From Gammaproteobacteria bacterium (GTDB lineage: Bacteria > Pseudomonadota > Gammaproteobacteria > Pseudomonadales > Pseudohongiellaceae), in the NCBI GenBank assembly GCA_029244985.1, contig JAQWQD010000024.1, forward strand, positions 1 through 64,000: a stretch of 64,000 bases of DNA. Direction: 5' to 3'. The position numbers were made by a program, and so were the translations under genes. The notes below the pieces were generated by a model that was not told the origin of the DNA, searched no databases, and saw only the letters and a list, made by a program, of their open reading frames with translations. This document shows positions 5,259 through 40,456 of this stretch, piece by piece (the first letter of the stretch is position 1; every line of letters starts with the position of its first letter).

Positions 5259-6452
5259 ATGCAACGCAATAAAAGCTCTTTGATAACCGCCACTCTAGCC
5301 CTTTCATTGCTCGTGGTACTTGGGGTTGCCCAAAACTATTTGCAGAACTCAGTCACCGCTGCCAGCAATGGAAGAATGGTGCCTCATTTTGAAGTAGATC
5401 CGTTCTGGCCCCAGCCCTTGCCTAATAAATGGATACTGGGAAGCGCTATTGGCGTGGCTGTAGATGCACGTGATCATGTTTACATTGTTCACCGAAATGA
5501 TGATGCTAATTTTGCCACACAGGAAATCGGTATCGACAATGAAATAGCAGATTGCTGCACGGCAGCCCCACCGATTCTGGAATTCGATGCCGATGGCGCA
5601 CTTGTTAATGCATGGGGCGGCCCTGGGCAAGGCTATACCTGGCCTGCCTCAAATCATGGCATTGAAATCGCACCCAACGGCGACGTTTGGATAGGTGGCA
5701 ATGGTGGTGGTGATTCCCATGTCCTGGTATTTACCCGCGACGGCCAGTTTGTGCGTGAAATCGGCTTACCCGGTGAGCCTATTGATAGCAACAGCACAAC
5801 TCATTTCAGCCGCGTCGCTGAAATCGCAATAGAACCGGATGCAAACGAGGCCTATTTTGCCGATGGCTATGGCAATAAGCGGGTGGCTGTCGTAGATGTT
5901 GCCACAGGAGCCTTCAAACGATATTGGGGGGCTTACGGTAACCGCCCCTCAGATGACCGGGTCAAATATACTCCCGGGGAAACATTGCCACAGCAATTCG
6001 TCGGTCCCGTCCATTGCGCCGAGCCGTCAAAAGACGGACTCATATACGTATGTGATAGGGGTGCGGACAGGATCCAGGTATTTCGGCCGGATGGTACCTA
6101 TGTTAAGGAAGCACAAGTCGCCCCGATGACTGTTGGTGCTGGCGCCACTTGGGACATTGCTTTTTCCCAAGACGACGACCAAGAGTTTATTTACGTAGCT
6201 GACGGCTCCAATATGAAAGTCCATGTTGTGCACCGAGACACACTGGAGGTCATGTATGTCATTGGTGAAGGTGGCCGGCAACCCGGATTGTTCTACGGCA
6301 CTCATAGCATTGTCACCGACACTCAGGGAAACTTTTATACGACCGAAACCTATGAGGGAAAACGTGTCCAGAAGTTCGTCTACCGGGGCTTGAGACCACT
6401 TGAACAAATGCAATCTGGCCCCGCCTGGCCAGCTGGCACTTTGATTGAATAA
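5259..6452 (+). CDS. Exported NHL propeller, peptidyl-alpha-hydroxyglycine amidating lyase (PAL)-like
   Basis: After an N-terminal signal/anchor the protein is a six-bladed NHL beta-propeller. Compared with the lyase half of animal PAM it keeps the counterparts of the active-site residues: Arg79 in VHR, His133 in NHGIEI, Tyr204 in DGYGNKR, His252 in PVHC followed by DRGADRIQ, and His349 in GTHSI. In PAL the three histidines bind zinc and the Arg/Tyr pair cleaves hydroxyglycine to amide and glyoxylate. This is the most complete of the three PAL-like genes in the window. Two adjacent Cys (CC, about residue 100) lie in a loop. The true substrate is unknown; other six-bladed propellers (lactonases, gluconolactonases) are alternatives. 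It is a single-gene unit facing the receptor group. Confidence 0.75.
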   Translation: MQRNKSSLITATLALSLLVVLGVAQNYLQNSVTAASNGRMVPHFEVDPFWPQPLPNKWILGSAIGVAVDARDHVYIVHRNDDANFATQEIGIDNEIADCCTAAPPILEFDADGALVNAWGGPGQGYTWPASNHGIEIAPNGDVWIGGNGGGDSHVLVFTRDGQFVREIGLPGEPIDSNSTTHFSRVAEIAIEPDANEAYFADGYGNKRVAVVDVATGAFKRYWGAYGNRPSDDRVKYTPGETLPQQFVGPVHCAEPSKDGLIYVCDRGADRIQVFRPDGTYVKEAQVAPMTVGAGATWDIAFSQDDDQEFIYVADGSNMKVHVVHRDTLEVMYVIGEGGRQPGLFYGTHSIVTDTQGNFYTTETYEGKRVQKFVYRGLRPLEQMQSGPAWPAGTLIE

Positions 6453-11009: not shown

Positions 11010-12878
11010 CTATTGAGGTGGAATGAACCAGATTGGTGACGACCATCCACGCTCTTGAATGGTGCTAGGCAGATCTGGTCTAGGTTCGACGCCAGCCCTA
11101 ACAGCATCCCAGGTAGACCAGCGACAACTTGGATTTTCAATTGCGCGAACATAATAGAATGCATGCTGGGCAGAGTCATACTCTGGATCCTCCCACCGCG
11201 ATTTCAATTCGGCCGCTCCAAGTCCGGAGCTAATACTGCAGTCCTCTAAGCTAACACTAGCATTATTATCTGCGCACCGATGACTAATGGAGTCAATTTC
11301 CATGTCATCCGCACATGCAACGTCATATATTTTTTCATAGATCTGTTCGTTCTGAACCCATCCTTTAATTATTTGCAGTCGTTGAAGGGGCGCACTGTTT
11401 GGATCTTTGGCTGCCCAAGCAATAAAAGTCGCAGGTTCATTTCTATCGGTGATAACGTTTCCACCCATACTCACGCCGCCAGCATATGATTTTGCGACCA
11501 GTTCCCTATCATCCACATCAGGCAAATCATTCCCGGCAAAAAACCTGATTTTTATACGTGGACCAGAGGTGCCAAATGCCTCTTTTCTTCTCAGAGCGTC
11601 ATAAATAGATCCCCGAGTATTTTGTTCGGCCCAAACACCAGCTATGCCTGATGCGCCAAATCTCGCATACCGATCAAAATAAACGCCATCATTTTCTCCC
11701 ACTGAATCCAAAGGCAGGGAGCCCCGTTTTTGGCCGTCACTATCTAGTAGGCCAGAAACACCATAATAATTATTCTCTTCACCTACATGGGTCGAGTTGT
11801 GGTTATCACTAGACCCGATAAAGCCAAATTTAAAAGGATTAAAACCTTGCTCTGCTTCAAGCTTTATTCCATCTTGTAGTGCTTTTCGAACATAGCTCCC
11901 CTGCGGTTGGGTTGGGGTAGAACCTCCTATCCTAAATGATAAAACTTCAAACCCGGCTAATTCATCATTTGCTGACAACGCCGGGTGAGTTTCAGATGTT
12001 CCTTTTACCTGAGTTATCTCAACTAAAGGCTCGTTCCTAATGCGTTGACTCGCATAAGCAGAATCTAAAGGCCTTCCTTGGTAATCTGAAAGAGCAAACA
12101 TCAATCCATCAGATAAATTGGAATTATGCGGAATGGCTAAGCTTTCAATGCCAGCAGCACGGTTCATATCCATCCAAGACCAGAGGTCTTGAGGGTCATC
12201 AGAGTCAATTCTTGAAAAAGGGATTTCCGGTACTACTGCGTCTCTAAAAATGACGTTCCTATGCAGCATTTCTTCCTCTGGGCCTGTGCCAGTATATTCG
12301 TACGCTATAAAAGTTGTAAATTTCCCTGGTTCATAGTGTCTATTAGCACTTTCGACAATGTCATCCCAAGCGTTCTTTACAACTTGATCATCCATGATTT
12401 CGCTGCCATTCCCCGCGTTTGCAAATTGAGCAAATCTAAAGAACACGGATCGACGCTGATTTACGTCATCACCTAAAGAATCTATACCCTCCGCAACTGG
12501 ATGTTGGGAAAGAATTGAATCCCCCAAAGCCATTTCTCTAATGATTCCCAAATAGTAAGCATGGTCACTTACCCCATAAAAATCCATCGGGACATCAAGC
12601 CGCATATCAAACCCAGCAGGGTGGCGAATGCTTCCACCTTTAGCAAACTCATAAGCATCATTTGGAGAAGCTATGCCTCCAAAAATAAAAGCGTCGTAGG
12701 AATACATTGAATGGACATGTAAATCACCAAAATACGCGTTCCGCTCACTATTATATGCAACCGTGTTATTGGCGATACGATCGCTACTATCTCCAGTGAC
12801 AACCTCTGCAGGTCCGTCAGTTTCAGTACAAGATACTACAAAGATTAGAACTCCGAGGCTAAAAAATAACTTACCCAT
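11010..12878 (-). CDS. DUF3604 lipoprotein (PHP-like fold)
   Basis: A lipobox (FVVSC) follows a short hydrophobic stretch. The body has the DUF3604 pattern: AYFGDLHVHSMYSYDAF near the N-terminus, GVSDHAYYLG, IPHNSNLSDG, and GFIGSSDNHN towards the centre. The HxH and DH motifs resemble the metal site of PHP/amidohydrolase-type phosphoesterases, so a metal-dependent hydrolase is likely, but the substrate is not known. I start at the second ATG (12878), which has AGGG at correct spacing; the first ATG touches AGGA. It is co-directional with the lectin-hydrolase gene 110 bases downstream and probably acts with it at the cell envelope. Confidence 0.8.
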   Translation of the reverse strand: MGKLFFSLGVLIFVVSCTETDGPAEVVTGDSSDRIANNTVAYNSERNAYFGDLHVHSMYSYDAFIFGGIASPNDAYEFAKGGSIRHPAGFDMRLDVPMDFYGVSDHAYYLGIIREMALGDSILSQHPVAEGIDSLGDDVNQRRSVFFRFAQFANAGNGSEIMDDQVVKNAWDDIVESANRHYEPGKFTTFIAYEYTGTGPEEEMLHRNVIFRDAVVPEIPFSRIDSDDPQDLWSWMDMNRAAGIESLAIPHNSNLSDGLMFALSDYQGRPLDSAYASQRIRNEPLVEITQVKGTSETHPALSANDELAGFEVLSFRIGGSTPTQPQGSYVRKALQDGIKLEAEQGFNPFKFGFIGSSDNHNSTHVGEENNYYGVSGLLDSDGQKRGSLPLDSVGENDGVYFDRYARFGASGIAGVWAEQNTRGSIYDALRRKEAFGTSGPRIKIRFFAGNDLPDVDDRELVAKSYAGGVSMGGNVITDRNEPATFIAWAAKDPNSAPLQRLQIIKGWVQNEQIYEKIYDVACADDMEIDSISHRCADNNASVSLEDCSISSGLGAAELKSRWEDPEYDSAQHAFYYVRAIENPSCRWSTWDAVRAGVEPRPDLPSTIQERGWSSPIWFIPPQ

Positions 12879-13015
12879 AATTTGCCCTATTTCCATTCCT
12901 ATATTTATTCAGAGCATAAGACCTGCAGACGAGATAGTCTAGAAGGTAATCTTTAATCTGATTGTCGTTTATTGATACTTTTTAAAAATTTCTGATTTTA
13001 GAAATAATATTTAAT

Positions 13016-21113: not shown

Positions 21114-22094
21114 ATGAACTTTCTTCCTCTTCCGTTAAGTTTTTTATTGATACTAATTCCTAATCTCGGTCTCGCTGCCGATAATTACACAGTGCCTAAA
21201 ACTGAATGGGGTTTGCCGGACTTACAAGGCGTATGGAATTTTTCTTCCAATACACCAATGCAACGCCCCTCCCAATTTGGTACTCGACAATATCTTACTG
21301 ATGAAGAAGTTGCCGAGCGACTATCTAGATCTGCTGCGAACGATGCAGCGTCTGACGCAGCCATTCCAGGAACCGGTGTTGATGAAGCCTATAACGATTT
21401 TTGGATTGAAAGCGCTGGTCTTGGTCTCGCCCAACAAACTTCTCTCATAATATATCCTGAGAACGGTCGCTTACCCTCATTGCAAGATGATGCTTATCGA
21501 ACTGCATTTGGCAGACCACCAGAGCGACCTGTGCGCAGCGCATTAGGGGCGGGGTTTGCAACTGATGGGCCGGAGGATCGCCCACTTTCCGATCGCTGTA
21601 TTCTTGGATTTAACGCAGGACCTCCCGTTACGCCCAGTTTTTACAACAACAATCTTCAGATCGTACAGAACAGGGATCACTTAGTCATAATCACAGAAAT
21701 GGTTCATGACGCTCGAATCGTGCCGCTTAATGATAGTCCAACTGCGCCGCGAGAGATCGGCTTCTGGACTGGCGACTCACGTGGTTATTGGGAAGGAGAT
21801 ACCCTCGTTGTAGAAACTCAAAACTTCAACGGACTAACTAATACATTTTCATTGCTAGGATCTTCTGAGAATAAACACTTAACTGAAAAGTTTACTCGTG
21901 TTGCACACGATCAAATCAATTATGAGTTTACTGTTGATGATGCTTCAACATTTACTGACAAAATTGTTGGCTTGATTCCAATTTTCAAAGTGGCAGGCCA
22001 AGTTTACGAATACGCATGCCATGAAGGTAACTATGGGATGGTAAATATTTTGCGCGGCGCCCGGGTAGCGGAACAATCGACTGACCCTAATTAG
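21114..22094 (+). CDS. Conserved exported protein of unknown function (DLQGVW family)
   Basis: A signal peptide (to LAAD) is followed by a single domain with PKTEWGLPDLQGVWNF, RLPSLQDDA, SDRCILGFNAGPPVTP, YNNNLQIVQ, RGYWEGDTLVVETQNF and a C-terminal YEYACHEGNYGMVNIL. I recognise the pattern from Acidobacteria and marine Gammaproteobacteria, where it is usually 'hypothetical'. A paralogue lies at 39.5-40.5 kb with the same motifs in order. The conserved Cys, His and Glu near the end (ACHEGNYG) could bind a metal or substrate. The beta-rich sequence suggests a lipocalin- or propeller-like secreted binding protein; that is a guess. It is not in an operon. Confidence 0.75.
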   Translation: MNFLPLPLSFLLILIPNLGLAADNYTVPKTEWGLPDLQGVWNFSSNTPMQRPSQFGTRQYLTDEEVAERLSRSAANDAASDAAIPGTGVDEAYNDFWIESAGLGLAQQTSLIIYPENGRLPSLQDDAYRTAFGRPPERPVRSALGAGFATDGPEDRPLSDRCILGFNAGPPVTPSFYNNNLQIVQNRDHLVIITEMVHDARIVPLNDSPTAPREIGFWTGDSRGYWEGDTLVVETQNFNGLTNTFSLLGSSENKHLTEKFTRVAHDQINYEFTVDDASTFTDKIVGLIPIFKVAGQVYEYACHEGNYGMVNILRGARVAEQSTDPN

Positions 22095-22129: not shown

Positions 22130-23947
22130 TTACTTTAGGGCAAACACCCATAACGCTGCAGCCTCTTGATTCTCTGGGACGAAACCTGAAAACTTATTTT
22201 GCAGTCCTAACCAAACGCCAGTGTGAATATTAAGCTGTCCAGCTACAACTGCAACGTATTGTATTCCATCTACACTATAGGTGATTGGAAATGCAGCAGG
22301 TATGGCGCCAAGTTGAGTTTCCCAGACGATTTCACCAGATTGCTGGTCAAATGCCTTAAAAGAATTATCCAGATAACCTAAAAATACCAGCCCCCCCGCG
22401 GTTGCCAAACTAGCCGATGCCGGAACCACTTCTTGACGGTATTGCCATGCTGGCTCCCGAGTATTCAGATCTATAGCTTGCAAACGCCCGTAGTTTCCGT
22501 CTGTATCCGGAACTGGTCTAGTGTCTGCACGCATTCCCGTTGTAAGCAATGTACCGGAATCATCGAGCAAGGTATCCATGCAGACTTCGAACATGGGGAC
22601 AAATAACAAGCCGCTGTCATTGTTAATAGAAGAAGCATGCCAATTTCGCCCTCCTTGATAATACGGACAAACTGTCCGAATCTCTTCTGCATCGAGCGTC
22701 ACATTGGGATTAGGAATTTTCTCGCCGGTTTCTGGATTGATGGCAACAAAGAGATTTTGTAATCCGGTGTCGACAGAGAACAAATACTCGCCAGTTTCGG
22801 CGTCCAAAGCATCAAACAAAGCTGGTTTTCCTGCGGTGACAACCACCTTCTTCAGTTCGCCATTTATTTCTAATTCGACAATTGAGCGCTCGAATATCCA
22901 ATCCAGATCAAACTGATCATTAGCTACGTGCTGGTAGTACCACACCAGTTCTCCGGTCGCAGGCCGCAGTGCTAGGGTAGTATTAGTATACAGTGCATCA
23001 TTGTTGACTCCATCTACGCCCAAAGAATAGAGCAACGGACCCGTATTATAGGTGGGTGATACACCGTAGAAGACTAAATCTAGCTCGGCATCGTACGCTC
23101 CTGTATTCCACACTGATCCCCCCTGCCTTTCTTCTAAGGGGATATTATTCCAGGTGTTACCGCCTGGCGCATCAGGCCTCGCTAATGTATTAAAGCGCCA
23201 GGTCTCCTTTCCTGTATCAAGATCAATAGCAAAAATAAAGCCGCCACCTGGTACAAAAGATGCCGCCATGCCCTGAATAACTTGACCACCAGCAACAGTT
23301 GGCGCGCTTCTCAAAGCATACCCTTCATTACCACCAACATCGACTGCATGGTCCCAAATTACTTCCCCAGTACGCGCATTTAAGGCAACCATGTGCAGAT
23401 CTGACGTTGGCACCAAAACCTTGTCTTCGTGCAGCGCTATACCAAACTTGTGACTAGTTACTGCATTTCCATCATGACTGTAGCGCCATAACATTTCTCC
23501 ATTGGTTGCATCTAAGGCCAGCACCACATCTCCTGCGCTGTAAAGAAACATGATCCCATCATGAACCAGTGGCGTAGGCATATTATTGCCCGCCGTCACC
23601 TCTTGATGCCAGGCAAGCTCAAGTTCAGCGACGGTGTCTCTATTTATCTGATCGAGATTAGAAAAGCCAAGATTATTGTAAGTGCGGCGCCAAGTGAGCC
23701 AATCAGCATCTGGTGGATTTTGTAAAAGCTCATCTGAAACCGATGAGTAGTTCCGAAGCAAGGGATTTGTGTCTGGATCCGCGTTGATTGAATCAAGAGA
23801 ATTTGCAACATTTCTGCCATAACGCTCGATTATCCCGCCCGAGTTTTCATTTGGCTCTGCATTGTCATCTTGCTGAGCATTAGCCCCGGTATGAATTTTC
23901 ACTACCAGGAAGAAAAACAGAAATATTTTAGCAAGTACTCGCTTCAT
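22130..23947 (-). CDS. PQQ-dependent dehydrogenase (quinoprotein propeller)
   Basis: A signal peptide is followed by an eight-bladed quinoprotein propeller. Its opening WLTWRRTYNNLGFSNLDQINRDTVAELELAWHQ and repeated blade motifs (ALDATNGEMLWRY, ALNARTGEVIWDH, AIDLDTGKETWRF, ATGGLVFLGYLDNSFKAFD) are those of methanol/ethanol-type PQQ dehydrogenases. There is no C-terminal cytochrome domain, so it must pass electrons to a separate cytochrome c. It should oxidise alcohols, aldehydes or sugars in the periplasm with PQQ and calcium or a lanthanide. It is downstream of the SnoaL-like gene by 63 bases on the same strand. Confidence 0.85.
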   Translation of the reverse strand: MKRVLAKIFLFFFLVVKIHTGANAQQDDNAEPNENSGGIIERYGRNVANSLDSINADPDTNPLLRNYSSVSDELLQNPPDADWLTWRRTYNNLGFSNLDQINRDTVAELELAWHQEVTAGNNMPTPLVHDGIMFLYSAGDVVLALDATNGEMLWRYSHDGNAVTSHKFGIALHEDKVLVPTSDLHMVALNARTGEVIWDHAVDVGGNEGYALRSAPTVAGGQVIQGMAASFVPGGGFIFAIDLDTGKETWRFNTLARPDAPGGNTWNNIPLEERQGGSVWNTGAYDAELDLVFYGVSPTYNTGPLLYSLGVDGVNNDALYTNTTLALRPATGELVWYYQHVANDQFDLDWIFERSIVELEINGELKKVVVTAGKPALFDALDAETGEYLFSVDTGLQNLFVAINPETGEKIPNPNVTLDAEEIRTVCPYYQGGRNWHASSINNDSGLLFVPMFEVCMDTLLDDSGTLLTTGMRADTRPVPDTDGNYGRLQAIDLNTREPAWQYRQEVVPASASLATAGGLVFLGYLDNSFKAFDQQSGEIVWETQLGAIPAAFPITYSVDGIQYVAVVAGQLNIHTGVWLGLQNKFSGFVPENQEAAALWVFALK

Positions 23948-24951: not shown

Positions 24952-25165
24952 AACCATTCTCTAGTTAATAGCTGGAAGCCAAAAAAAGCTTATCTGCTAT
25001 AGTTAAAACAGGCGCCAATATAACATTACAACACCAATATAATTAGTAAAAACTAAAAATTATTCTAATGCAGAGAAAAAACCTACATTGCTTGCCTTGG
25101 AAGGACAATGCTACTTTTACATCCTCAATACTGCTTCTTTCCCTAATAATAAAGATTTAGAGAAT

Positions 25166-27349
25166 ATGATAATTTCATTTTATTTACGAATTCCTAAAAA
25201 AAGACTGATTCAATGGGCTCAGATTAGGGCGGTAAATTCCTGTCGATTCTGGCTAGCTAGTATTTTTTTGCTGACACTGCCACCTGCTACCTTTAGCCAG
25301 CTGCAAGGCATTGAAGAAGGTAGTTGGCAATATCTAGGCGGGGACTCAGGTCATACACGCGCCTCGCCGCATCTTTCCCAGATTACGACAGAAAATTTCG
25401 ACGAGCTGGAAGTCGCCTGGACTTGGCGTGGAGACAATTTTGGACCAAACGTTGAGTATACCTTTCGATCAACACCCATCTACGTAGATGGAATCCTTTA
25501 CACGGTAGCAGGTCAACGCCGCCAGGTGGTCGCGATCGATGCAGCCACTGGTGAAACCTTGTGGACCTTTCGAGAACCTGAAACCATGCGCTACTTGCGC
25601 TCACCCCGAACAGATTTTGGTAAAGGCGTCGCCTACGGTGAAATTGATGAACAAGGGATTATCTATGTTACCTCCCCAGCCTTCTTTTTATGGGCACTAG
25701 ATGCAAGAACTGGCGTTCCACTAAAAAATTGGGGAAGCGAAACGGGGATTGATTCTTTTTCCGAATCCGGTGTGGTCGATCTCATTCCTCATTTAGTAAA
25801 TGACTGGCCACGCTGGTTAGAGCGAGAAGGGGCCTATGATCCTGACCATGGAATTCCTCAAAAATTAGGTATGGTAACTGCATCGGCCCCACCCATTGTG
25901 GTTAATGGTGTCGTAGTTGTGCTAATTGGCCATGAACCGAGTTACGACCAAACCCGCATCGAAAACGTACCAGGTGATATTATGGGCTTTGATGCACGAA
26001 CTGGAGAGCAACTGTGGAAATTTCATGTTATTCCTAGACCTGGGGAATTTGGTCATGAAACATGGGAAAACGATGCCTGGCAATGGTCCGGTGATATGTC
26101 CTCATGGGCACCAGCCTCAGCCGACCCTGAACTGGGACTGGTGTACATAGTAACGAATGCTTCTACCGTCCAGTCCTATACAGGCCATCGGCCCGGCCAT
26201 AATTTATTTGGCGGTAGTGTTATCGCGCTGGATGCAGCGACCGGTGAACGGCGCTGGCATTTTCAGATTCATCACAGCGAACAATGGAATTATGACATTC
26301 CAACCGCGCCGATATTGATGGACTTAAACATAAACGGACAAGCAGTCCCAGCGCTCATTCAAAATACTAAACAGGGCTTGATTTTCGCTTTTAACCGCGT
26401 CACTGGTGAACCTCTTTGGCCAATTGAAGAACGACCAGTTATGCAAACTCAAGTGCCCGGCAATTACACAGCAGCTACCCAGCCATACCCTACCCGGCCC
26501 GAACCCTTGGACCCCATTATCATTAACGGCATCACTGAGGAATTTCTTCTCGACTACACTCCAGAGTTGAAAGCACAGGCTCGGACTGTATTAAGCGAGT
26601 TTGAAGTTGGTGGTTTGTATGTTCCTGCGCTGCCCTACCCCCATGCTAATAACTATAGAAACGTAGTGGGGTGTGTCGGTGGGTTAAACATCTATCACCC
26701 ACCGGTAGCAGATCCTACTTCAGGTATTTTATATGCCTCGCATCGACGTAGCTGCAGTGCACCTGCGTTTATGGAACCAACTAATGGTATTGATGAAGTA
26801 AGAGGCCTACCGGGATTATCTGAAGAAGCCTGGCGTGGACGAGAACGGCACACACCAACCACCGGAACTACTGTAGCTGCCTGGGCGCCAGGTAGGTCAC
26901 GAGAATTTCTACCACTTATAGATAGACTGCCGGTCTATAAACCACTCTTTCAAGGTATGGCTGCCTACGACATGAATACCGGCGAGAAACTTTGGGACAT
27001 TCCAATTGGGGAAACACCTGAAAACATAAAAAATCATCCATTACTGCAGGGAATCGATACTTCTGCTACCGGCGGTACCGGGCACTCTATTCAAATGATT
27101 ATGGGGGATTTGCTAGTGCAGACTACCGAGGACCTGCGTGGTGATGCAGAGTTAAACGAGAATAATAATCCAGTGCTCAATGCTCGTGACCTTAGAACTG
27201 GCGAGATCCTTAACCGTGTCGAAATACCAGCACCCGGCCAATACGGCATGATGACCTACATGCACAAAGGAAATCAGTACATCGTTTTGCAATCAGGCAG
27301 CGTAAAGAGGAGACAGACAGGAGCATTATTTGCCTTGCGACTGCCGTAA
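25166..27349 (+). CDS. PQQ-dependent dehydrogenase (glucose/alcohol quinoprotein type)
   Basis: After a membrane/signal segment (FWLASIFLLTLPPATFS) the protein opens EGSWQYLGGDSGHTRASP, the usual entry into a PQQ propeller, and carries blade motifs such as VVAIDAATGETLWTF, FLWALDARTGVPLKNWG, MGFDARTGEQLWKF and VIALDAATGERRWHFQ. A Cys-containing loop (VVGCVGGLNIYHPP) precedes the last blades. It should oxidise an alcohol or sugar in the periplasm. The track start is a TTG well upstream; I prefer the ATG at 25166. It is convergent with the PAL-like gene and close to the haem/copper genes, which could accept its electrons (inference). Confidence 0.85.
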   Translation: MIISFYLRIPKKRLIQWAQIRAVNSCRFWLASIFLLTLPPATFSQLQGIEEGSWQYLGGDSGHTRASPHLSQITTENFDELEVAWTWRGDNFGPNVEYTFRSTPIYVDGILYTVAGQRRQVVAIDAATGETLWTFREPETMRYLRSPRTDFGKGVAYGEIDEQGIIYVTSPAFFLWALDARTGVPLKNWGSETGIDSFSESGVVDLIPHLVNDWPRWLEREGAYDPDHGIPQKLGMVTASAPPIVVNGVVVVLIGHEPSYDQTRIENVPGDIMGFDARTGEQLWKFHVIPRPGEFGHETWENDAWQWSGDMSSWAPASADPELGLVYIVTNASTVQSYTGHRPGHNLFGGSVIALDAATGERRWHFQIHHSEQWNYDIPTAPILMDLNINGQAVPALIQNTKQGLIFAFNRVTGEPLWPIEERPVMQTQVPGNYTAATQPYPTRPEPLDPIIINGITEEFLLDYTPELKAQARTVLSEFEVGGLYVPALPYPHANNYRNVVGCVGGLNIYHPPVADPTSGILYASHRRSCSAPAFMEPTNGIDEVRGLPGLSEEAWRGRERHTPTTGTTVAAWAPGRSREFLPLIDRLPVYKPLFQGMAAYDMNTGEKLWDIPIGETPENIKNHPLLQGIDTSATGGTGHSIQMIMGDLLVQTTEDLRGDAELNENNNPVLNARDLRTGEILNRVEIPAPGQYGMMTYMHKGNQYIVLQSGSVKRRQTGALFALRLP

Positions 27350-27429: not shown

Positions 27430-28473
27430 TTAATTCAGGACGTGGCGTTCCAGCATGCGGCGTCGAACCACAGCTCCGTATACATTGCCTTCATGGTCAA
27501 CGCCCACACCCTCAGCCCCAGAATGATCATCTCGAAGTGGCTCCATGTCTTCGATAAATACATCGACACTGCCATCAATCGCCGAACCGATGCGAATACC
27601 CTTCATTATTCCCATCAATTCTTTAGCACCAGTGTCAGGACCAGACTCAGAGTCAGCAACGTAGATTCGGTCATCAGGTGTGATGAATATGCCACTGGGT
27701 CTACCAAATTGACGCCACTCATCAATAAACTCCCCTTCCTGGGTGAATAACTGAATGCGATTGTTTTCACGGTCACCGACAAACAGTCGGCCGCGAGAAT
27801 CCATCGCGATGGTATGGGGTTCGCTTATGAGGCCTTGAGCTGAACCCTTGCTGCCCCATTCTTTTATATAGTCACCGCTGGCGCTGTAATGAACGACGCG
27901 ATTATTGAGACCTCCACGATGACTGTCAGTCACAAAAATATCGCCATCCTTCGGATCAACTACCACATCATTTGGAGAGTGCAGCAAATTGGGACCAGAT
28001 CCTCCCCTGCCACTTTGCCCGAGAGTCATAAGTATTTCGCCCTCGGGACTAAACTTAGTAACCTGATGCCCAATTTCTTCATTACCTCTAGCATCAGCTA
28101 CCCAGAGGTTACCTTCATGATCGACAGTGGCACCGTGGGGGAAAACAAACAAACCCGCACCGAAAGCCATTTGCAGGTTACCCTCGTAGTCGTATTTCAG
28201 AATGGGTGGCTCAGGCCGGTTTTCACAAGAGTTTTCAAAGCAGCGGTGAATTACGTAAATGAACTGCCCATTTGGCGAAGGTTCAACCGCGGTTACAGCT
28301 GCCCAAGCTCCAGTGCCCTCCGGTAATTCTCCCCAGTCTCGTTGCGTGACATATGGTCGTGGTAAGTCATTACGCACACCGTGCACTGCAGACTCAATAG
28401 ATTGAGCAACCGCAGTCAGCTTGAAAGCCATTACTGCAAGTACCGTTGGAAAAACCGTTAGTAAATTCATCAA
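27430..28473 (-). CDS. Exported NHL propeller, PAL-like but with active-site losses
   Basis: A signal peptide (to AVAQ) leads into a six-bladed propeller resembling PAL: HR at residues 76-77, FPHGATVD (His113), EPHTIAMD (His220) and DRENNRIQ, which is nearly identical to the DRENGRIQ of animal PAL. The Tyr motif is replaced (DSHRGGLNNR), and the place of the third zinc histidine appears to read AEGVGVD, so full lyase activity is doubtful. It may be a binding or modified lyase. It is divergent from the PHM-like haem/copper gene across 205 bases, an arrangement suggesting shared control. Other NHL-type lactonases are an alternative. Confidence 0.75.
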   Translation of the reverse strand: MMNLLTVFPTVLAVMAFKLTAVAQSIESAVHGVRNDLPRPYVTQRDWGELPEGTGAWAAVTAVEPSPNGQFIYVIHRCFENSCENRPEPPILKYDYEGNLQMAFGAGLFVFPHGATVDHEGNLWVADARGNEEIGHQVTKFSPEGEILMTLGQSGRGGSGPNLLHSPNDVVVDPKDGDIFVTDSHRGGLNNRVVHYSASGDYIKEWGSKGSAQGLISEPHTIAMDSRGRLFVGDRENNRIQLFTQEGEFIDEWRQFGRPSGIFITPDDRIYVADSESGPDTGAKELMGIMKGIRIGSAIDGSVDVFIEDMEPLRDDHSGAEGVGVDHEGNVYGAVVRRRMLERHVLN

Positions 28474-28678: not shown

Positions 28679-30031
28679 ATGAATAATATCAGCAGGCTTT
28701 TTAACTCAATTGCCCTTATTTCGATACCCGCATTCGTTCAGGCACAGGCTGCCGAGCAGCAGATCACCTACAATGGCGAAGCAGGCCGTATTATTAATGA
28801 GAACTGCGTAGTATGCCATCGAGAAGGTGGCATAGGTCCAATGCAATTTGAGTCCTATGATCAAATTCGGCCCTGGGCACCCTTGATTCAGCTAAAAGTG
28901 GCTAATCGAGAAATGCCACCCTATGCCTATGATCACGGCATTGGTATTCAAAACCTGCAAGGCGATTGGCGTCTAGAACAAGAAGAGATTGACACTCTTG
29001 TAGCCTGGGTTAATCAAGGCGCTCCTTTGGGTGATCCCGATTCGCCCCTAGCTGCACCACAATTAAACGACCCTGATGCGTGGAATTTTGTTAGCGAATT
29101 AGGGGAACCAGATTTAGTAATTCCTTCAGTTGCTATAGATATTCCTGCGAATGGCAATGATTTATGGAGCACCCACTATGTGCCGAGCGGTATATCAAGC
29201 GATCGCTGCATAAAAGCAGTACAAGTTAAACCTCGAGGCGATGCAAAGTCAGTTGTTCATCATGCAAACTCAACTATAGACGTATATAACGATGACGGTG
29301 AATTAGAGCGTTATAGCATGCTTACTGAATATGCGATGGGCAAATGGGGTGAGTTAGTACCCGAAGATGTTTGTCGTACGATTCCAACTAATTCCATGGT
29401 GCGCTGGAGCATTCATATGTTTCCTGGCGGTCTTGGGAGCATAGCACCAGGTACTATCATAGAAGATAACGTGGTAGAAATTGGCCTATGGCTACACCCT
29501 GAAGGTTATGAAGATAATGTTGGTTATACCCAAGACTTAAAGCAGTACAACATTCAATACGAAAGAGCAGAGCGAGACTTGCGTTTAGTTATTCCACCTC
29601 ATGGCTATACGATGACCCAGGGTTTTCACTCTTTTGATCACCCGGTTCGCATAGACAGCTTTCAACCCCATGGTCATTTGCGCATGCGCTCAGCATCGTT
29701 TGAAATTTTCTACCCTAAAACTGGTCAAACAGAAGAAATAAGCCAAATTTCTAATTGGAGTGCAACCTGGCACCATAGTCATATTTATGAACCGGACGTC
29801 GCTCCTTTGTTACCAACTGGGGCAGTGCTCGTACTAAAGCAATGGTACGACAATACTGCGGACAATCCGAATAACCCAGACCCGGATCAATGGGTGTTCG
29901 GGGGCAGTAGAACGGCTGATGAAATGACCCATGCCTGGATAGCAGTAACCCACTTAGATGAAGAAGGCTATGAAAAATTAGCTGCCGAGCGTAAAGAAAA
30001 AGAAGCTCGCTCATTTGCTGGTAACGATTAA
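28679..30031 (+). CDS. Cytochrome c domain fused to PHM-like type II copper monooxygenase
   Basis: A signal peptide is followed by a mono-haem domain (CVVCH, residues 43-47, with Met79 in REMPP as a likely axial ligand). From about 160 on there are two beta domains with motifs matching the copper ligands of peptidylglycine alpha-hydroxylating monooxygenase: His194-His195 (VVHHAN) and His273 (WLHPEG) for CuH, and His331/His333 (QPHGHL) and Met416 (ADEM) for CuM. The phrase LVLKQWYDNTADNP is also typical of bacterial relatives. A fused haem would supply electrons directly instead of ascorbate. It is first in a three-gene plus-strand set and divergent from a PAL-like gene. The substrate is unknown. 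Confidence 0.75.
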   Translation: MNNISRLFNSIALISIPAFVQAQAAEQQITYNGEAGRIINENCVVCHREGGIGPMQFESYDQIRPWAPLIQLKVANREMPPYAYDHGIGIQNLQGDWRLEQEEIDTLVAWVNQGAPLGDPDSPLAAPQLNDPDAWNFVSELGEPDLVIPSVAIDIPANGNDLWSTHYVPSGISSDRCIKAVQVKPRGDAKSVVHHANSTIDVYNDDGELERYSMLTEYAMGKWGELVPEDVCRTIPTNSMVRWSIHMFPGGLGSIAPGTIIEDNVVEIGLWLHPEGYEDNVGYTQDLKQYNIQYERAERDLRLVIPPHGYTMTQGFHSFDHPVRIDSFQPHGHLRMRSASFEIFYPKTGQTEEISQISNWSATWHHSHIYEPDVAPLLPTGAVLVLKQWYDNTADNPNNPDPDQWVFGGSRTADEMTHAWIAVTHLDEEGYEKLAAERKEKEARSFAGND

Positions 30032-30154
30032 ACAGAGACTTCTGAAGAGGACTCTCTGCGCAATAAAACCCAACTACCTAAAGATAGTATTTTATAGTAG
30101 CTGCTGAAAATTTTATTATATGAATTTCAATTAACGCCTGCTGGAGAAAGCACA

Positions 30155-31552
30155 ATGAAACTCAGCATTAAGAAAACCCTTTCTTTTATTATCGGACTAC
30201 TTGCTTTTCCCATGGCCGGCTTTGGTCAGAGCGATAGTGTGACGTTCCACAAAGACATTGAACCAATCTTGCAGCGTAGTTGCCAAAACTGTCATCGGGT
30301 TGGTGGTGGCGGTCCTATGCCATTAGTGACCTATGATGAAGTCGCTCCCTTCGCCGGTTTAATCGAGTACAAGACAGGACTGCGAGACCGAGCTGGCGCC
30401 ATGCCACCATGGTACGTAGAAAAAAATATCGGCATTCAGAGCTTTAAAAACGATAACTCACTTAGTGATGAGGATCTCGCCGCCATATCTACTTGGGCTA
30501 GGAGCGGAACCCCACAGGGAGATCCTTCAGATGCCCCAGAGCCTCTGATTTTTGATGACAGCATCAAGTGGAAAGCCGGCACACCAGACCTAGTCGTCAA
30601 ACTACCTGAAATTACCAAGTTGGCCGGAACTCCTGACTGGTGGGGCGAGCTGGAAACCGTCCCAACCGGGCTGACCGAAGACCGTTATGTAAAGTCTGTG
30701 GAGGTGGTTGAGGTTAACGATGTTGACATGACCCAACTTGCCGGTACCGTTGGCGGGCGCTACATATTCCATCACATGCTCTGGTTTACCGCAAAATTGG
30801 ATGAGGAAGGAAATCCGCAGCGCGGAATGTTCAGTAATCCATGGCCAGTGCATGAAGTCGGACGTAACGCCGATATCTTCGACGATAATACAGGTCGTCT
30901 TTTAGAAGCAGGATCAGCGATAGTGTCTGACTCGATTCATTTGCACTCCAACGGCAGAGATACCACTGGTCACCTGGAGATTGGTTTTACTTTCCATGAT
31001 CGGGACTTCGAACCCAAGTATAGAGACACGATAAATTTTACCGGCAATGGAGTTGATATAAGTATAGTGCCAAATCAGACAGATCAAGAACTTCATGCCT
31101 ACAGCATTCTTGAAGCGCATACTAAGATTGTCTCTTTCGAACCTCACCTGCATGCACCCGGAACTCGTATGTGTCTGGAAGCAATCTGGGGTCATCAAGT
31201 CGAGACACTGTCCTGTGTAGGATACGATCACAACTGGGTGCGTACCTATCAATTTGAGGATTCTGCGGCGCCGCTATTACCTAAAGGCACTATCCTTCAC
31301 ATCACTGGTTATATGAATAATACGGAGACTAATATCAACATCCCAGACCCTCGCAATTGGCAGGGATCTGGTAATCGTTCCACACAGAACATGTTTCTCG
31401 ATCTCGGCATTCGTGTATCCATGAATCAGGAGCAATTCCTTGAAGCTATGGAAGAGAGACAAGAAGTTCTTAATTTGGGCCCGAACGATCATGTTATTGG
31501 ATGCCCGCTCTGCACGGCGACTTTGGTTTCACTCGTCGAAGCTGAAGATTAG
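30155..31552 (+). CDS. Second cytochrome c/PHM-like copper protein
   Basis: The architecture matches the upstream gene: signal peptide (to FGQ), CQNCH haem site at 43-47 with MPP later, then copper motifs FHHMLWF (His206-His207, almost the HHMLLF of animal PHM), HLHSNG (His262/264), EPHLHAPG (His331/333) and TQNM (Met413). It diverges strongly from its neighbour elsewhere, including a C-terminal CPLC motif that might bind metal or form a disulphide. The two proteins may be a heterodimer or act on different substrates. GGAG precedes the ATG, and the next gene follows after 11 bases. Confidence 0.75.
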   Translation: MKLSIKKTLSFIIGLLAFPMAGFGQSDSVTFHKDIEPILQRSCQNCHRVGGGGPMPLVTYDEVAPFAGLIEYKTGLRDRAGAMPPWYVEKNIGIQSFKNDNSLSDEDLAAISTWARSGTPQGDPSDAPEPLIFDDSIKWKAGTPDLVVKLPEITKLAGTPDWWGELETVPTGLTEDRYVKSVEVVEVNDVDMTQLAGTVGGRYIFHHMLWFTAKLDEEGNPQRGMFSNPWPVHEVGRNADIFDDNTGRLLEAGSAIVSDSIHLHSNGRDTTGHLEIGFTFHDRDFEPKYRDTINFTGNGVDISIVPNQTDQELHAYSILEAHTKIVSFEPHLHAPGTRMCLEAIWGHQVETLSCVGYDHNWVRTYQFEDSAAPLLPKGTILHITGYMNNTETNINIPDPRNWQGSGNRSTQNMFLDLGIRVSMNQEQFLEAMEERQEVLNLGPNDHVIGCPLCTATLVSLVEAED

Positions 31553-31563
31553 TTGGAGAAAAA

Positions 31564-32496
31564 ATGAAATTATTAGCTGAAAAAATTAGAAGCAGGTGTA
31601 ACTCTCTGTTACTTGCAACGCTATTGCTTTTCTCGCCTGCCGTGCTTACTGCAGAAACTTTACAATATGGTGCACCTGTCTACCCTTCCTTTGAAGGCTG
31701 GCGCCCCAATCCAGACGGATCATTCAATCTCATGTTCGGATACATGAATGAAAATTGGGAAGAGCAACCATTAGTGGAAGTTGGAGACAATAATTTTTTC
31801 TCTCCCGGCGAAGCTGACCGAGGTCAACCGACAAATTTCATGCCCCGCCGAAATCGTTTCACTTTCGAGGTTAAAGTACCTTCCGATTGGGGTGATCGTG
31901 AGCTGGTTTGGAATTTAAATATCAATGGCGTGGAAGCCAAGGCCTATGGAACCCTGAAGCCTGATTACCTGGTTGATAACATGATAATCGCTTCTGAAAC
32001 TGGGTCTCTAGGAATTGGAGTCAGCAGCCCTGAATCCAGGTCGAATACCCCTCCAGTACTCACATTTCAGGGTGATGATGCGCGCACGGCTAAGGTAGGT
32101 GAGGCAATAACCCTTCGGACTCACCTTGAAGATGATGGCTTACCGAGATCAAGGCTTAGATCTTCTAGGTCTGAGAGTGACCTGCATCGGGCCATGTTTC
32201 GCGCTCCTCAAAAACCCACTGTAAGTAAATTAAATGCCCTATTCCTGAGTTGGAATATCTACCGCGGAGAAGGCAGGGTGACGTTCGATCCTCCACAAAC
32301 AAAGGTATGGGAAGACACCCGCGTATCGGCTAACTCCCCCTGGGGTGGACTGTGGCTGCCGCCAGTAATCCCTGATGATGGCATAATTGAAGTAACTGCG
32401 ACTTTTGATGAGCCTGGCATCTATACTCTCTGGGGACGGGCAGATGACGGTGGGCTCTATGCCGACACCTATTTGACTGTCACTGTCACTCCTTGA
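31564..32496 (+). CDS. Conserved secreted protein linked to the PHM-like pair
   Basis: A signal peptide (to LTAE) is followed by beta-rich sequence with the block VYPSFEGWRPNPDGSFNLMFGYMNENWEE, then DRGQPTNFMPRRNRFTFEVKVP and a C-terminal domain closing EVTATFDEPGIYTLWGRADDGG. I have seen this block in secreted proteins near similar cytochromes but know of no assigned function. Two Ig-like domains seem likely. Its tight spacing (11 bases) behind the second haem/copper gene and a GGAG site suggest it is made with them as an accessory or substrate-binding subunit. A strong terminator follows. Confidence 0.7.
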   Translation: MKLLAEKIRSRCNSLLLATLLLFSPAVLTAETLQYGAPVYPSFEGWRPNPDGSFNLMFGYMNENWEEQPLVEVGDNNFFSPGEADRGQPTNFMPRRNRFTFEVKVPSDWGDRELVWNLNINGVEAKAYGTLKPDYLVDNMIIASETGSLGIGVSSPESRSNTPPVLTFQGDDARTAKVGEAITLRTHLEDDGLPRSRLRSSRSESDLHRAMFRAPQKPTVSKLNALFLSWNIYRGEGRVTFDPPQTKVWEDTRVSANSPWGGLWLPPVIPDDGIIEVTATFDEPGIYTLWGRADDGGLYADTYLTVTVTP

Positions 32497-32562: not shown

Positions 32563-32600
32563 CTTCCCTGGATTTTAGTGAAAGCATATTGAGTAAACCA

Positions 32601-34226
32601 ATGGCTGCAGAAGAAAACACAACCTATCAAGAAATCTATGACTCTTTTACTTGGGATAGACCCACTCATTTCAATTTTGCTAATGACGTTGTTGATAAAT
32701 GGGCACAGCAAAACCCAAATAAACAAGCTCTGTTTTGGGTAGATGATAACGGCAATGAAAAGACACGGACATTTGATCAAATTTCAAGGAATTCAAAAAA
32801 AATTAGCAATGCCTTGACAAATTCTGGAGTAAAACGTGGAGATGTCATCATTTTATTATTGGGGCGAGAGGTGGAATGGTGGGAAGCTTTTACAGCAGCT
32901 CTCCGAATGGGCGCAGTTGTTTCACCCGGCACTACTCAACTCTCAGCGAAAGATATCGAGTATCGTTTAGGTGCTGCTAGCGCCACCTGTATTGTTACCA
33001 ATGCTGCTAATGCAGAAAAAGTTGATGAGGTTGCTGCCTCTTGCCCAACACTTGTAACAAAAGTACTTGTAGATGGTCTGTGCGATGGCTGGCTGCATTA
33101 TCCAACACTCCTGGATAAGTCAGCGGAAGACTTTGCGGAAATAAATACAGCATCCAATGATGAATCGATGTGCTATTTCACTTCTGGTACGACCGGCTAC
33201 CCCAAAATGACTATTCATACCCAAGACTATGCACTTAGTCATCAGGTCACTGGCGCTCACTGGTTAAACCTTGGTGAAAACGACTTACATTGGAATATAA
33301 GTGACACCGGCTGGGCGAAGGCAGCTTGGAGTAGTTATTTTGGTCCCTGGACTTGTGGGGCAGCCCTGTTTATTCATCATTCTGCCGGTTTCAATCCTGG
33401 GCAAACATTAACTTTTATTGAGAAATATCCTATTACTACAATGTGTGGTGCTCCCACCATATATAGGATGCTAGTGCTAGAAAAACTATCTAATTATGAT
33501 TTCGGCGAGTTAAAGCATTGTGTTGGTGCGGGCGAACCTCTAAACCCCGAAATTATTGATACATGGAAAAACGCAACAGGAATTACTATTCGAGATGGTT
33601 ATGGGCAAACAGAAACTGGCATCCTCTGTGGAAATTTTCATTTTATAGAGCCGAAGTTTGGTTCAATGGGAAAGCCAGCACCCGGAATCCATTTATCAGT
33701 AATAGATGAAGATGGTAATGAAGTGGCCACTGATATCGAAGGGGACATTGCCGTGCGAGTGGTGCCGGATCGACCCCAAGGGTTGTTTAAGGAATATAAA
33801 AATGACCCTGAGCGCACTGCTGACACTCGAAGGGGCCCTTGGTATATCACAGGAGATCGCGCCACCATTGATAATGAGGGTTACTTCTGGTTTGTATCCC
33901 GTGCCGATGATGTAATCCTGTCTGCCGGATACCGTATTGGGCCATTTGAAGTAGAGAGCGCACTAATCGAGCATGTTGCCGTGGCTGAATCTGCCGTCGT
34001 ATCGAGCCCCGATGCAACCAGGGGTGAAGTGGTCAAGGCCTTTGTGGTGCTTGTACCAGGTGCCGAAGCAAGTGGCTCTTTGGCAAAAGAATTACAAGAT
34101 CATGTAAAAAAGGTCACGGCTCCCTATAAATACCCGCGCAAGCTGGAATTCATCGAAGCTCTCCCAAAAACCGTCAGCGGCAAGATTCGTCGTATCGAAT
34201 TGCGCGAAAAAGAATGGAGCAATTAG
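32601..34226 (+). CDS. Medium-chain acyl-CoA synthetase-like AMP-forming ligase
   Basis: The 541-residue product has the ANL superfamily motifs: CYFTSGTTGYPKMT (P-loop), YGQTETG (A5), YITGDRATID (A7), DDVILSAGYRIGPFEVE (A8) and PKTVSGKIRR with the C-terminal catalytic lysine. The acyl-adenylate domain resembles medium-chain or benzoate-type CoA ligases. It activates a carboxylic acid with ATP and CoA in the cytoplasm. Two starts are possible: TTG at 32589 or ATG at 32601; the latter has GAG at proper distance. The methyltransferase-like gene overlaps its 3' end by 13 bases, so the two are coupled. Confidence 0.85.
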   Translation: MAAEENTTYQEIYDSFTWDRPTHFNFANDVVDKWAQQNPNKQALFWVDDNGNEKTRTFDQISRNSKKISNALTNSGVKRGDVIILLLGREVEWWEAFTAALRMGAVVSPGTTQLSAKDIEYRLGAASATCIVTNAANAEKVDEVAASCPTLVTKVLVDGLCDGWLHYPTLLDKSAEDFAEINTASNDESMCYFTSGTTGYPKMTIHTQDYALSHQVTGAHWLNLGENDLHWNISDTGWAKAAWSSYFGPWTCGAALFIHHSAGFNPGQTLTFIEKYPITTMCGAPTIYRMLVLEKLSNYDFGELKHCVGAGEPLNPEIIDTWKNATGITIRDGYGQTETGILCGNFHFIEPKFGSMGKPAPGIHLSVIDEDGNEVATDIEGDIAVRVVPDRPQGLFKEYKNDPERTADTRRGPWYITGDRATIDNEGYFWFVSRADDVILSAGYRIGPFEVESALIEHVAVAESAVVSSPDATRGEVVKAFVVLVPGAEASGSLAKELQDHVKKVTAPYKYPRKLEFIEALPKTVSGKIRRIELREKEWSN

Positions 34227-38481: not shown

Positions 38482-39444
38482 TTAATGGCGGTGGATAAAC
38501 TTGTGTAGATCAGGCTTTATTGTGTCAGCGACATAGATTACACCGCCAGGCGCAAGAGTCATGTAATGGGCCTCACCAAATTCACCGAGCTTTTTCCCAG
38601 GTTCACCAGTTGCCGCAACAACTTTGCCATTTTTATCCAGCTTCAAAATCTCCCCTGCAAACCCACTCACCATCCACAAGGTGCCTTCTTCATCGAAGTG
38701 TAATCCGCAGGGCCAGCCCTTATAATGCCATTCCTTAAGGTAAGCTCCTTCATCGTCAAATATTTGAATGCGGCGATTCTGGCGATCTGCAACATAAATC
38801 AGCCCCTCACCGTCTACAACGATTGAATGAGGGGTATCGAATTGACCAGGCCCTGTGCCCGACCCACCCCATTTCTTCATAAAACGACCCATTCGATCAT
38901 ATTTTAATAATTGTGGTGTACCTCGGCCATGACCAACCAAGATAAAAACTTCACCTTCATCATTTATGGTTAAATCTGTCGGCTCAAACAGTAATCCATC
39001 TTCTGGTTCTCCAGCTTCGCCCATTCTGCCAATAGTAAGCAGCACTTCGCCATCGAGATTCATTTTGCGTACGGTGTGTCCATTAACGTCGGTGGTCCAT
39101 ATGTTGCCTTGAGGATCAAGACGCATACCATGTGGCCGCACGTAATCCCCCTGCCCCCAGGTCCGCAGTAGCCGACCCCGCGGATCGAACTCCATTAGAG
39201 GGTTTGGACCACGATTGAAAAGAATCAAATGATTGTCTTTAGTCCATACAACACTGGAGGATGCTCCTAACTCGACACCTGAAGGAATTTTTAACCCATG
39301 CTGCACTGGGACATATCCCAGATCTGGAGCAAGCTCCATTTGCAAAGGATCTGGACCTTCCAGCACCTGAGCTCGCGCACTCAAGGAAAAACCCAATGCA
39401 ATAGTTGTGCTGAGGGAAATTATCTTGAATTGCTTAAACTTCAT
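38482..39444 (-). CDS. Exported NHL propeller, PAL-like with three zinc histidines
   Basis: A signal peptide (to SARAQ) leads into a six-bladed propeller. Counterparts of PAL residues: Arg78 (FNRGP), His105 (RPHGMRLD), His206 (TPHSIVVD) followed by DRQNRRIQIF, and His293 (EAHYMTL). The Tyr motif has become VGHGRG, with His172 in its place. The metal site therefore looks intact while the acid/base residue differs. The ATG at 39444 has GGAG upstream; the track's longer form adds an implausible N-terminus. It is between the DLQGVW-protein gene (25 bases) and the cytochrome (12 bases), all minus strand. Confidence 0.8.
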   Translation of the reverse strand: MKFKQFKIISLSTTIALGFSLSARAQVLEGPDPLQMELAPDLGYVPVQHGLKIPSGVELGASSSVVWTKDNHLILFNRGPNPLMEFDPRGRLLRTWGQGDYVRPHGMRLDPQGNIWTTDVNGHTVRKMNLDGEVLLTIGRMGEAGEPEDGLLFEPTDLTINDEGEVFILVGHGRGTPQLLKYDRMGRFMKKWGGSGTGPGQFDTPHSIVVDGEGLIYVADRQNRRIQIFDDEGAYLKEWHYKGWPCGLHFDEEGTLWMVSGFAGEILKLDKNGKVVAATGEPGKKLGEFGEAHYMTLAPGGVIYVADTIKPDLHKFIHRH

Positions 39445-39469
39445 ACTTAGTTCTCCAAACCAATGCGTT

Positions 39470-40456
39470 CTAATCGTCGTCTTTCGGCGTACCGTTTCCA
39501 TTCATTCCCATAGATTCATAACGTCGCCATCCCGCAAGAATACCAACCATTCCATGATTACCTTCATGACAGGCGTATTCATAGACGGGATCTTCAATTT
39601 GACGTAAGGGGAATTTCGCAGACCAAGGCTGATCCCAAGAAAGCGGATCTTCGATAGTGAAATCATATTCCAGAGTGTTAGCACCAATACGCCGAATGCG
39701 TTCCTCCAACACCATTTTTTCGGAAGCACCGCGGCCATTGTCATGATAGTAAAAATGCTGGGTTTTAATGACCAATGTGTCACCTTCAAACCGGGCAATG
39801 GCGTCACCATCCCATTTCAACACTTTTGTTTGATGTTCATCATCGAAGCGAATGATGCGCGCTCGATGGATCATCTCACTCAAAATCATGATGTGATCTT
39901 CGGTTTGCACGATTTGAATATTGTTATTGTAAGCGCCTGGCACTATAGGTGGTCCTGCACCTCCACTCATCAAACACCTGTCTGCCAAAGTTCGACCTTC
40001 AGGACCAATGCTAAGGCGTCTATTTTCGGCCCTCACCTGAGCCCTTTTCCTGCCCATTTCGTTTAAGGCAGGCAAGCGACCGTTTGGCGGATCATAAATC
40101 AGTGACGTTCTGCGATCGGCGACGGTGTTCTCACCACGCTCATACCAGAAATTATTGTAGGAAATTACCCCTGGCGGATAGCCAGCACCACCAACAGAAT
40201 CGATGATGAGGTCCCGATTCTGACGACGAAGTTCGAATTCTTCCCATTCTACTGCCTGCTCGGGGGTGAGTGTTTCCAAGTGCTCTAACTCTCTGGGGCG
40301 GTTCAGCGGAGTAATGGTGCGATAGGTGTAGACACCCTGCAGATCTGGATGCCCAAATTCGGTAAGAGGAATATCAGATGATTGGGCGGACACTGCAGGA
40401 ACAGCTATCAGGCCGCCAAGGACTATGCTTAAAAGAAAGATCACTTTGGTGCTCAT
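39470..40456 (-). CDS. Conserved exported protein, DLQGVW family (second copy)
   Basis: This is a paralogue of the 21.1 kb gene. It has a signal peptide (to VSAQ), then LTEFGHPDLQGVYTYRTITPLNRP, RRTSLIYDPPNGRLPALNEMG, ADRCLMSGGAGPPIVPGAYNNNIQIVQ, ARFEGDTLVIKTQHF and the closing YEYACHEGNHGMVGILAGWR. The shared ACHEGNxGM ending and the CxxxxxAGPPxxP block are the best candidates for functional residues. GGAGG six bases ahead of the ATG at 40456 fixes the start. It opens the four-gene run that continues with PAL-like propeller, cytochrome c and DUF2784. Confidence 0.75.
   Translation of the reverse strand: MSTKVIFLLSIVLGGLIAVPAVSAQSSDIPLTEFGHPDLQGVYTYRTITPLNRPRELEHLETLTPEQAVEWEEFELRRQNRDLIIDSVGGAGYPPGVISYNNFWYERGENTVADRRTSLIYDPPNGRLPALNEMGRKRAQVRAENRRLSIGPEGRTLADRCLMSGGAGPPIVPGAYNNNIQIVQTEDHIMILSEMIHRARIIRFDDEHQTKVLKWDGDAIARFEGDTLVIKTQHFYYHDNGRGASEKMVLEERIRRIGANTLEYDFTIEDPLSWDQPWSAKFPLRQIEDPVYEYACHEGNHGMVGILAGWRRYESMGMNGNGTPKDDD

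Follow-up and report, generated by a model that had tools for sequence, protein, structure and literature searches.

Two adjacent genes of a marine OM182/Pseudohongiella-group bacterium raise the question of whether the chemistry of peptidylglycine alpha-hydroxylating monooxygenase (PHM) and dopamine beta-hydroxylase (DBH), which the literature consulted presents as eukaryotic enzymes that serve hormone and neurotransmitter synthesis and depend on ascorbate, is also carried out by bacterial proteins with a haem of their own. The genes lie in the window, by which is meant the whole stretch of 64,000 nucleotides that was analysed (contig JAQWQD010000024.1, positions 1 to 64,000) and to which all coordinates refer. 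ORF A (28679–30031, 450 aa) and ORF B (30155–31552, 465 aa) are both intact, lie on the + strand 123 bp apart, and each consists of a leader, a haem c domain and a PHM-like dicopper domain. The order of motifs in both is a signal-peptide-like leader, CxxCH, HH, a single His, HxH and Met, with the copper motifs arranged as in PHM. It seems likely that both proteins belong to the PHM/DBH superfamily and work as copper monooxygenases in the periplasm; the built-in haem c would serve as the electron feed and the product of an adjoining gene, here called C, as a partner.

The copper ligands can be placed with some precision. In PHM the CuM ion is held by H242, H244 and M314. The other site, CuH, has the ligands H107, H108 and H172, and CuH and CuM take one ascorbate electron each (PMC6123673). 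A PHM profile alignment, together with conservation among homologues, assigns H194-H195 of A (29258–29263) to the positions of H107/H108, H246 in WSIHMFPGG (29414–29416) to that of H172 as third CuH ligand, H331-x-H333 (29669–29677) to H242/H244 and M416 in ADEM (29924–29926) to M314, the DEM around the CuM Met being a further likeness of A to PHM. For B the same two lines of evidence give H206-H207 (30770–30775) for CuH and H331-x-H333 (31145–31153) for CuM, and conservation points to H262, the first His of IHLHSNG (30938–30940), as third CuH ligand and to M413 (31391–31393) as the CuM Met. The haem motifs, CVVCH in A (C43-H47, 28805–28819) and CQNCH in B (C43-H47, 30281–30295), are each followed by a Met within an MPP segment, M79 (28913–28915) and M83 (30401–30403) respectively, and all of these features are on the + strand.

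Conservation was assessed over 108 full-length homologues of less than 90% identity, a set that favours copies keeping both domains and that excluded a paralogue without HxH (L032). C43, C46, H47, M79, H194, H195, H246, H331, H333 and M416 of A are kept in 107 or 108 of these (M79 in all 108), and the equivalent conserved residues of B are C43, C46, H47, M83, H206, H207, H262, H331, H333 and M413. Next among the His, Met and Cys residues of A come M55, at 95%, and then H418, the next best His, at 69%; to judge from the alignment, conservation of the ligand motifs is far beyond chance. The original prediction of two ORFs each carrying CxxCH and copper-ligand motifs is borne out, and its claim that the latter follow the order of PHM stands for HH, HxH and Met. 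It fails for the third His of A, which had been sought in WLHPEG: this residue, H273, is His in 41% of the homologues and mostly Tyr elsewhere, and the ligand is H246. That reading had also overlooked the MPP Met behind the haem motif, as well as gene C and the other paralogues of the genome, some 20 in number. All aligned B-type proteins end in a GCPLC (CxxC) segment (31499–31513 in the window) that is absent from the A-type and might form a disulfide or bind a further metal.

Structure prediction, suggested at the outset as a check against PHM, recovered the PHM fold, a double jelly-roll. The AlphaFold models have mean pLDDT values of 83.3 (A) and 81.3 (B), and in a fold search of the PDB the top 31 matches of each are all PHM or DBH with a probability of 1.00, the best E being 1.3e-12 for the A model and 2.8e-10 for that of B, while superposition of either model on PHM gives a moderate TM-score of about 0.5–0.6 and an rmsd of 5–8 Å. 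The relationship surfaced only with profiles and fold search, pairwise phmmer searches of A and B against the PDB having found no PHM. A profile of the paralogues of the same genome reached DBH (4zel) at E 7.5e-5, the best sequence-profile match, and a second family profile reached PHM at E 0.0033, with lHH aligned to HH, nlHY to HY and HmH to HTH, and deM to the DEM of PHM only as a weak second segment; a profile made from A4 alone matched mainly haem domains and spurious chains. Pfam places neither Cu2_monooxygen nor Cu2_monoox_C above cut-off in A or B, which is a matter of detection and not of mechanism, and Pfam and NCBIfam together give nothing stronger than a faint cytochrome c match, so that, with PHM missing from the pairwise PDB searches as well, the catalytic part would escape standard annotation. 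One redoxin-type paralogue does pass for Cu2_monoox_C (27.3 bits, the cut-off being 23). The proposed fusion of cytochrome c with a two-copper monooxygenase domain of PHM type is supported jointly by the fold, the ligands and the profile alignment.

The haem domain itself is recognised by its CxxCH attachment motif, near-invariant among the 108 homologues, A and B scoring 18.5 and 20.4 bits with Pfam Cytochrome_CBB3 / Cytochrom_C, below the cut-off of 27. The closest solved haem-domain sequence is that of the hydrazine synthase alpha subunit (5c2v, E 0.0023), an enzyme otherwise unrelated to A and B. The invariant M79 of A and M83 of B are candidates for the distal axial ligand of the haem.

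The source genome holds about 22 copies, and all of the 36 other genomes of the genus that were searched have 10–30 matches each. Beyond the genus, 21 other families of the order gave no match at E 1e-3, five of 273 other genomes of the class sample match (two of these over the haem region only), and in the draw from the phylum one of 248 other genomes does; the named relatives come from OM182/Pseudohongiella-type marine MAGs, Gemmatimonadota and Acidobacteriota (Vicinamibacteria). In the tree the A-type and B-type proteins form separate, fully supported clades on long stems, with some deep joins unsure because long branches meet there. Further paralogues of the redoxin-cytochrome c-Cu2_monoox_C type (such as L030:2482-4248) share the haem c and PHM-like core and occur in the same genome, but unlike A and B they carry an extra N-terminal AhpC/TSA-like domain and fall in a clade apart. 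One same-genome copy of redoxin type, L032:2029-3720, has ARMN in place of PHxH; its CuM site is apparently lost and it is possibly a pseudo-enzyme.

Directly behind B, after 11 bp, lies gene C (31564–32496, + strand), which encodes 310 aa with a signal-peptide-like leader. It belongs to no Pfam family, and a profile search against the PDB gave nothing significant. Residues of the types G, N, P, F and W are invariant in it. Outside the window 20 B loci were sampled, and in 18 of them C is the next gene after B; of the remaining two, one (G007) has C fragments containing stops and in the other no C was found. Outside the B-type a C-like gene stands beside 73 of 80 sampled homologues from three phyla, and it is present in 62 of the 65 homologue loci for which both flanks were available. 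C-like genes are also found at the 5' end of the A-type arrays examined (L205, L206, L208 and G025), mostly with a divergent redoxin-type copy adjoining. In G025 (L203-L204) five tandem A-type genes lie downstream of a single C-like gene that has such a divergent copy beside it, and L206 and L208 show smaller layouts of a similar kind. We infer that C is a functional partner of the haem-PHM enzymes, where it might act in substrate presentation, docking or copper loading.

Around A and B the window encodes an aldehyde/xanthine oxidase-like protein, a SnoaL protein, a PQQ-dependent alcohol dehydrogenase (22130–23947, − strand), another PQQ dehydrogenase (25088–27349, + strand) and an acyl-CoA synthetase (32589–34226, + strand). 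In a single-copy orthologue group of the OM182 type the genes run C, haem-PHM, PQQ alcohol dehydrogenase, and the last of these follows immediately in 40 of 43 loci, most of which are orthologues within one genus and so not independent; the one such dehydrogenase examined has a Cytochrome_CBB3 domain of its own. The same order recurs in a Gemmatimonadota locus (L114). In another set of loci a PQQ gene lies within 5 kb in 14 of 33, and most B-C loci of other genomes have no PQQ neighbour, the association being strong for the one orthologue group alone. Two further features of the window may be recorded here: a 326-aa protein (21114–22094) that has a signal-peptide-like leader, matches no Pfam family and has relatives turning up repeatedly close to haem-PHM genes of several phyla, and a large DUF3604 protein (11010–12896, E 2e-210) beside a HupE/UreJ-like membrane protein and a PPIase.

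A working scheme would have the haem, held by CxxCH and the MPP Met, take single electrons from periplasmic donors and pass them to CuH in place of ascorbate, upon which CuM would activate O2 and hydroxylate an unactivated C-H bond. The resulting alcohol could then, at least in one orthologue group, be oxidised by the neighbouring PQQ alcohol dehydrogenase, a quinohaemoprotein from which electrons might pass back to the hydroxylase haem. That haem c replaces ascorbate as the donor is a reasonable supposition given that the haem fusion is invariant and that PQQ/cytochrome dehydrogenases adjoin it in one group. Whether the scheme extends to a widespread, ascorbate-free periplasmic C-H hydroxylation, in which haem-c-PHM, an obligate C and a quinohaemoprotein PQQ dehydrogenase that oxidises the alcohol and passes its electrons directly to the hydroxylase haem achieve R-CH2-R' + O2 -> R-CO-R' + H2O without NAD(P)H, is a tentative suggestion that we regard as rather doubtful.

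Other readings of the same features carry less weight. The haem might not be a catalytic donor at all, the proteins being copper/haem redox sensors or copper carriers, or the haem serving folding or O2 sensing, and the occurrence of a TlpA/redoxin-like domain in some paralogues and the missing HxH site of L032 would suit such roles; however, full conservation of the ligands in the other homologues, the large expansion and the catabolic neighbours favour an enzyme, and a non-donor haem seems improbable. The tandem arrangement had also been taken to suggest that A and B act as a heterodimer. Their close spacing on one strand fits this, as does the frequency with which A-type genes form tandem arrays of 2–5, but A and B sit in deep, separate clades and, beyond the window, are neighbours at no more than two of the sampled B loci, of which G016 is 99% identical to the window while in G012 the A gene is frameshifted. 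(In that locus, L184 or G012:C3, the A gene beside B is split into two overlapping frames and may be frameshifted or misassembled.) A heterodimer is on these grounds very unlikely; what stays next to B across genomes is C and not A, and the conserved unit is B-C rather than A-B.

Peptide amidation, with A and B working as PHM does and an adjacent NHL beta-propeller (27430–28473, − strand) distantly like PAL acting as the lyase, is suggested by the fold and ligands, by a match of the NHL protein to PAL 3fvz at E 1.5e-26 and by the recurrence of related NHL genes near some homologues (for example L112 and L114). Arg240, Asn316 and Tyr318 of PHM form its substrate-carboxylate site. These positions are Gln, His and Trp in A and Glu, Leu and Leu in B, and the absence of the carboxylate residues makes amidation unlikely. 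No PAL lyase domain is present in the A or B polypeptides, and the NHL protein is closer to the NHL domain of TRIM71 (E 1.1e-33) than to PAL, keeps two candidate zinc His residues and has the Glu of an SGAEG segment at what we take to be the position of the third PAL zinc His; its gene runs in the other direction, and most B-C pairs lack such a neighbour. Amidation by A and B is accordingly considered quite unlikely, and for the copper monooxygenase reading preferred here the probable substrate is a small organic molecule other than a peptide, differing between the roughly 20 paralogues. The window has three NHL propeller genes in all (5259–6452, 27430–28473 and 38482–39501), and Acidobacteriota relatives of the middle one are extended at the C terminus by a segment that includes a DxDGDG loop resembling an EF-hand.

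Set beside the known enzymes, A and B share with PHM (1sdw/1phm) the fold, the His-His-His of CuH and the His-x-His-Met of CuM in the same order, and with DBH (4zel) the fold and copper motifs. DBH differs in carrying a DOMON domain instead of haem c and in drawing its electrons from ascorbate. Unlike PHM, A and B are bacterial, have an N-terminal fused haem c and a conserved partner gene, and show no pairwise similarity to it by phmmer. A search of the open literature on bacterial PHM, Cu2_monoox_C and ascorbate-dependent monooxygenases, covering few of the subscription papers, turned up no account of a haem c-PHM fusion, and enzymes of this kind are apparently undescribed there. Earlier genome work on the sister family HTCC2089 reported many oxygenases with substrate unclear (PMC8371827).

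If the reading is right, it would give PHM/DBH chemistry a new electron route, with a bacterial branch, a covalent haem donor and a partner protein, and would offer studies of the PHM mechanism a natural intramolecular electron donor. For OM182-type marine bacteria, with their 10–30 copies per genome, and for Acidobacteriota and Gemmatimonadota besides the marine Gammaproteobacteria, it points to an uncharacterised hydroxylation capacity. About twenty secreted haem-PHM enzymes, almost always beside one partner gene, suggest an undescribed bacterial route by which unreactive carbon may be hydroxylated without vitamin C.
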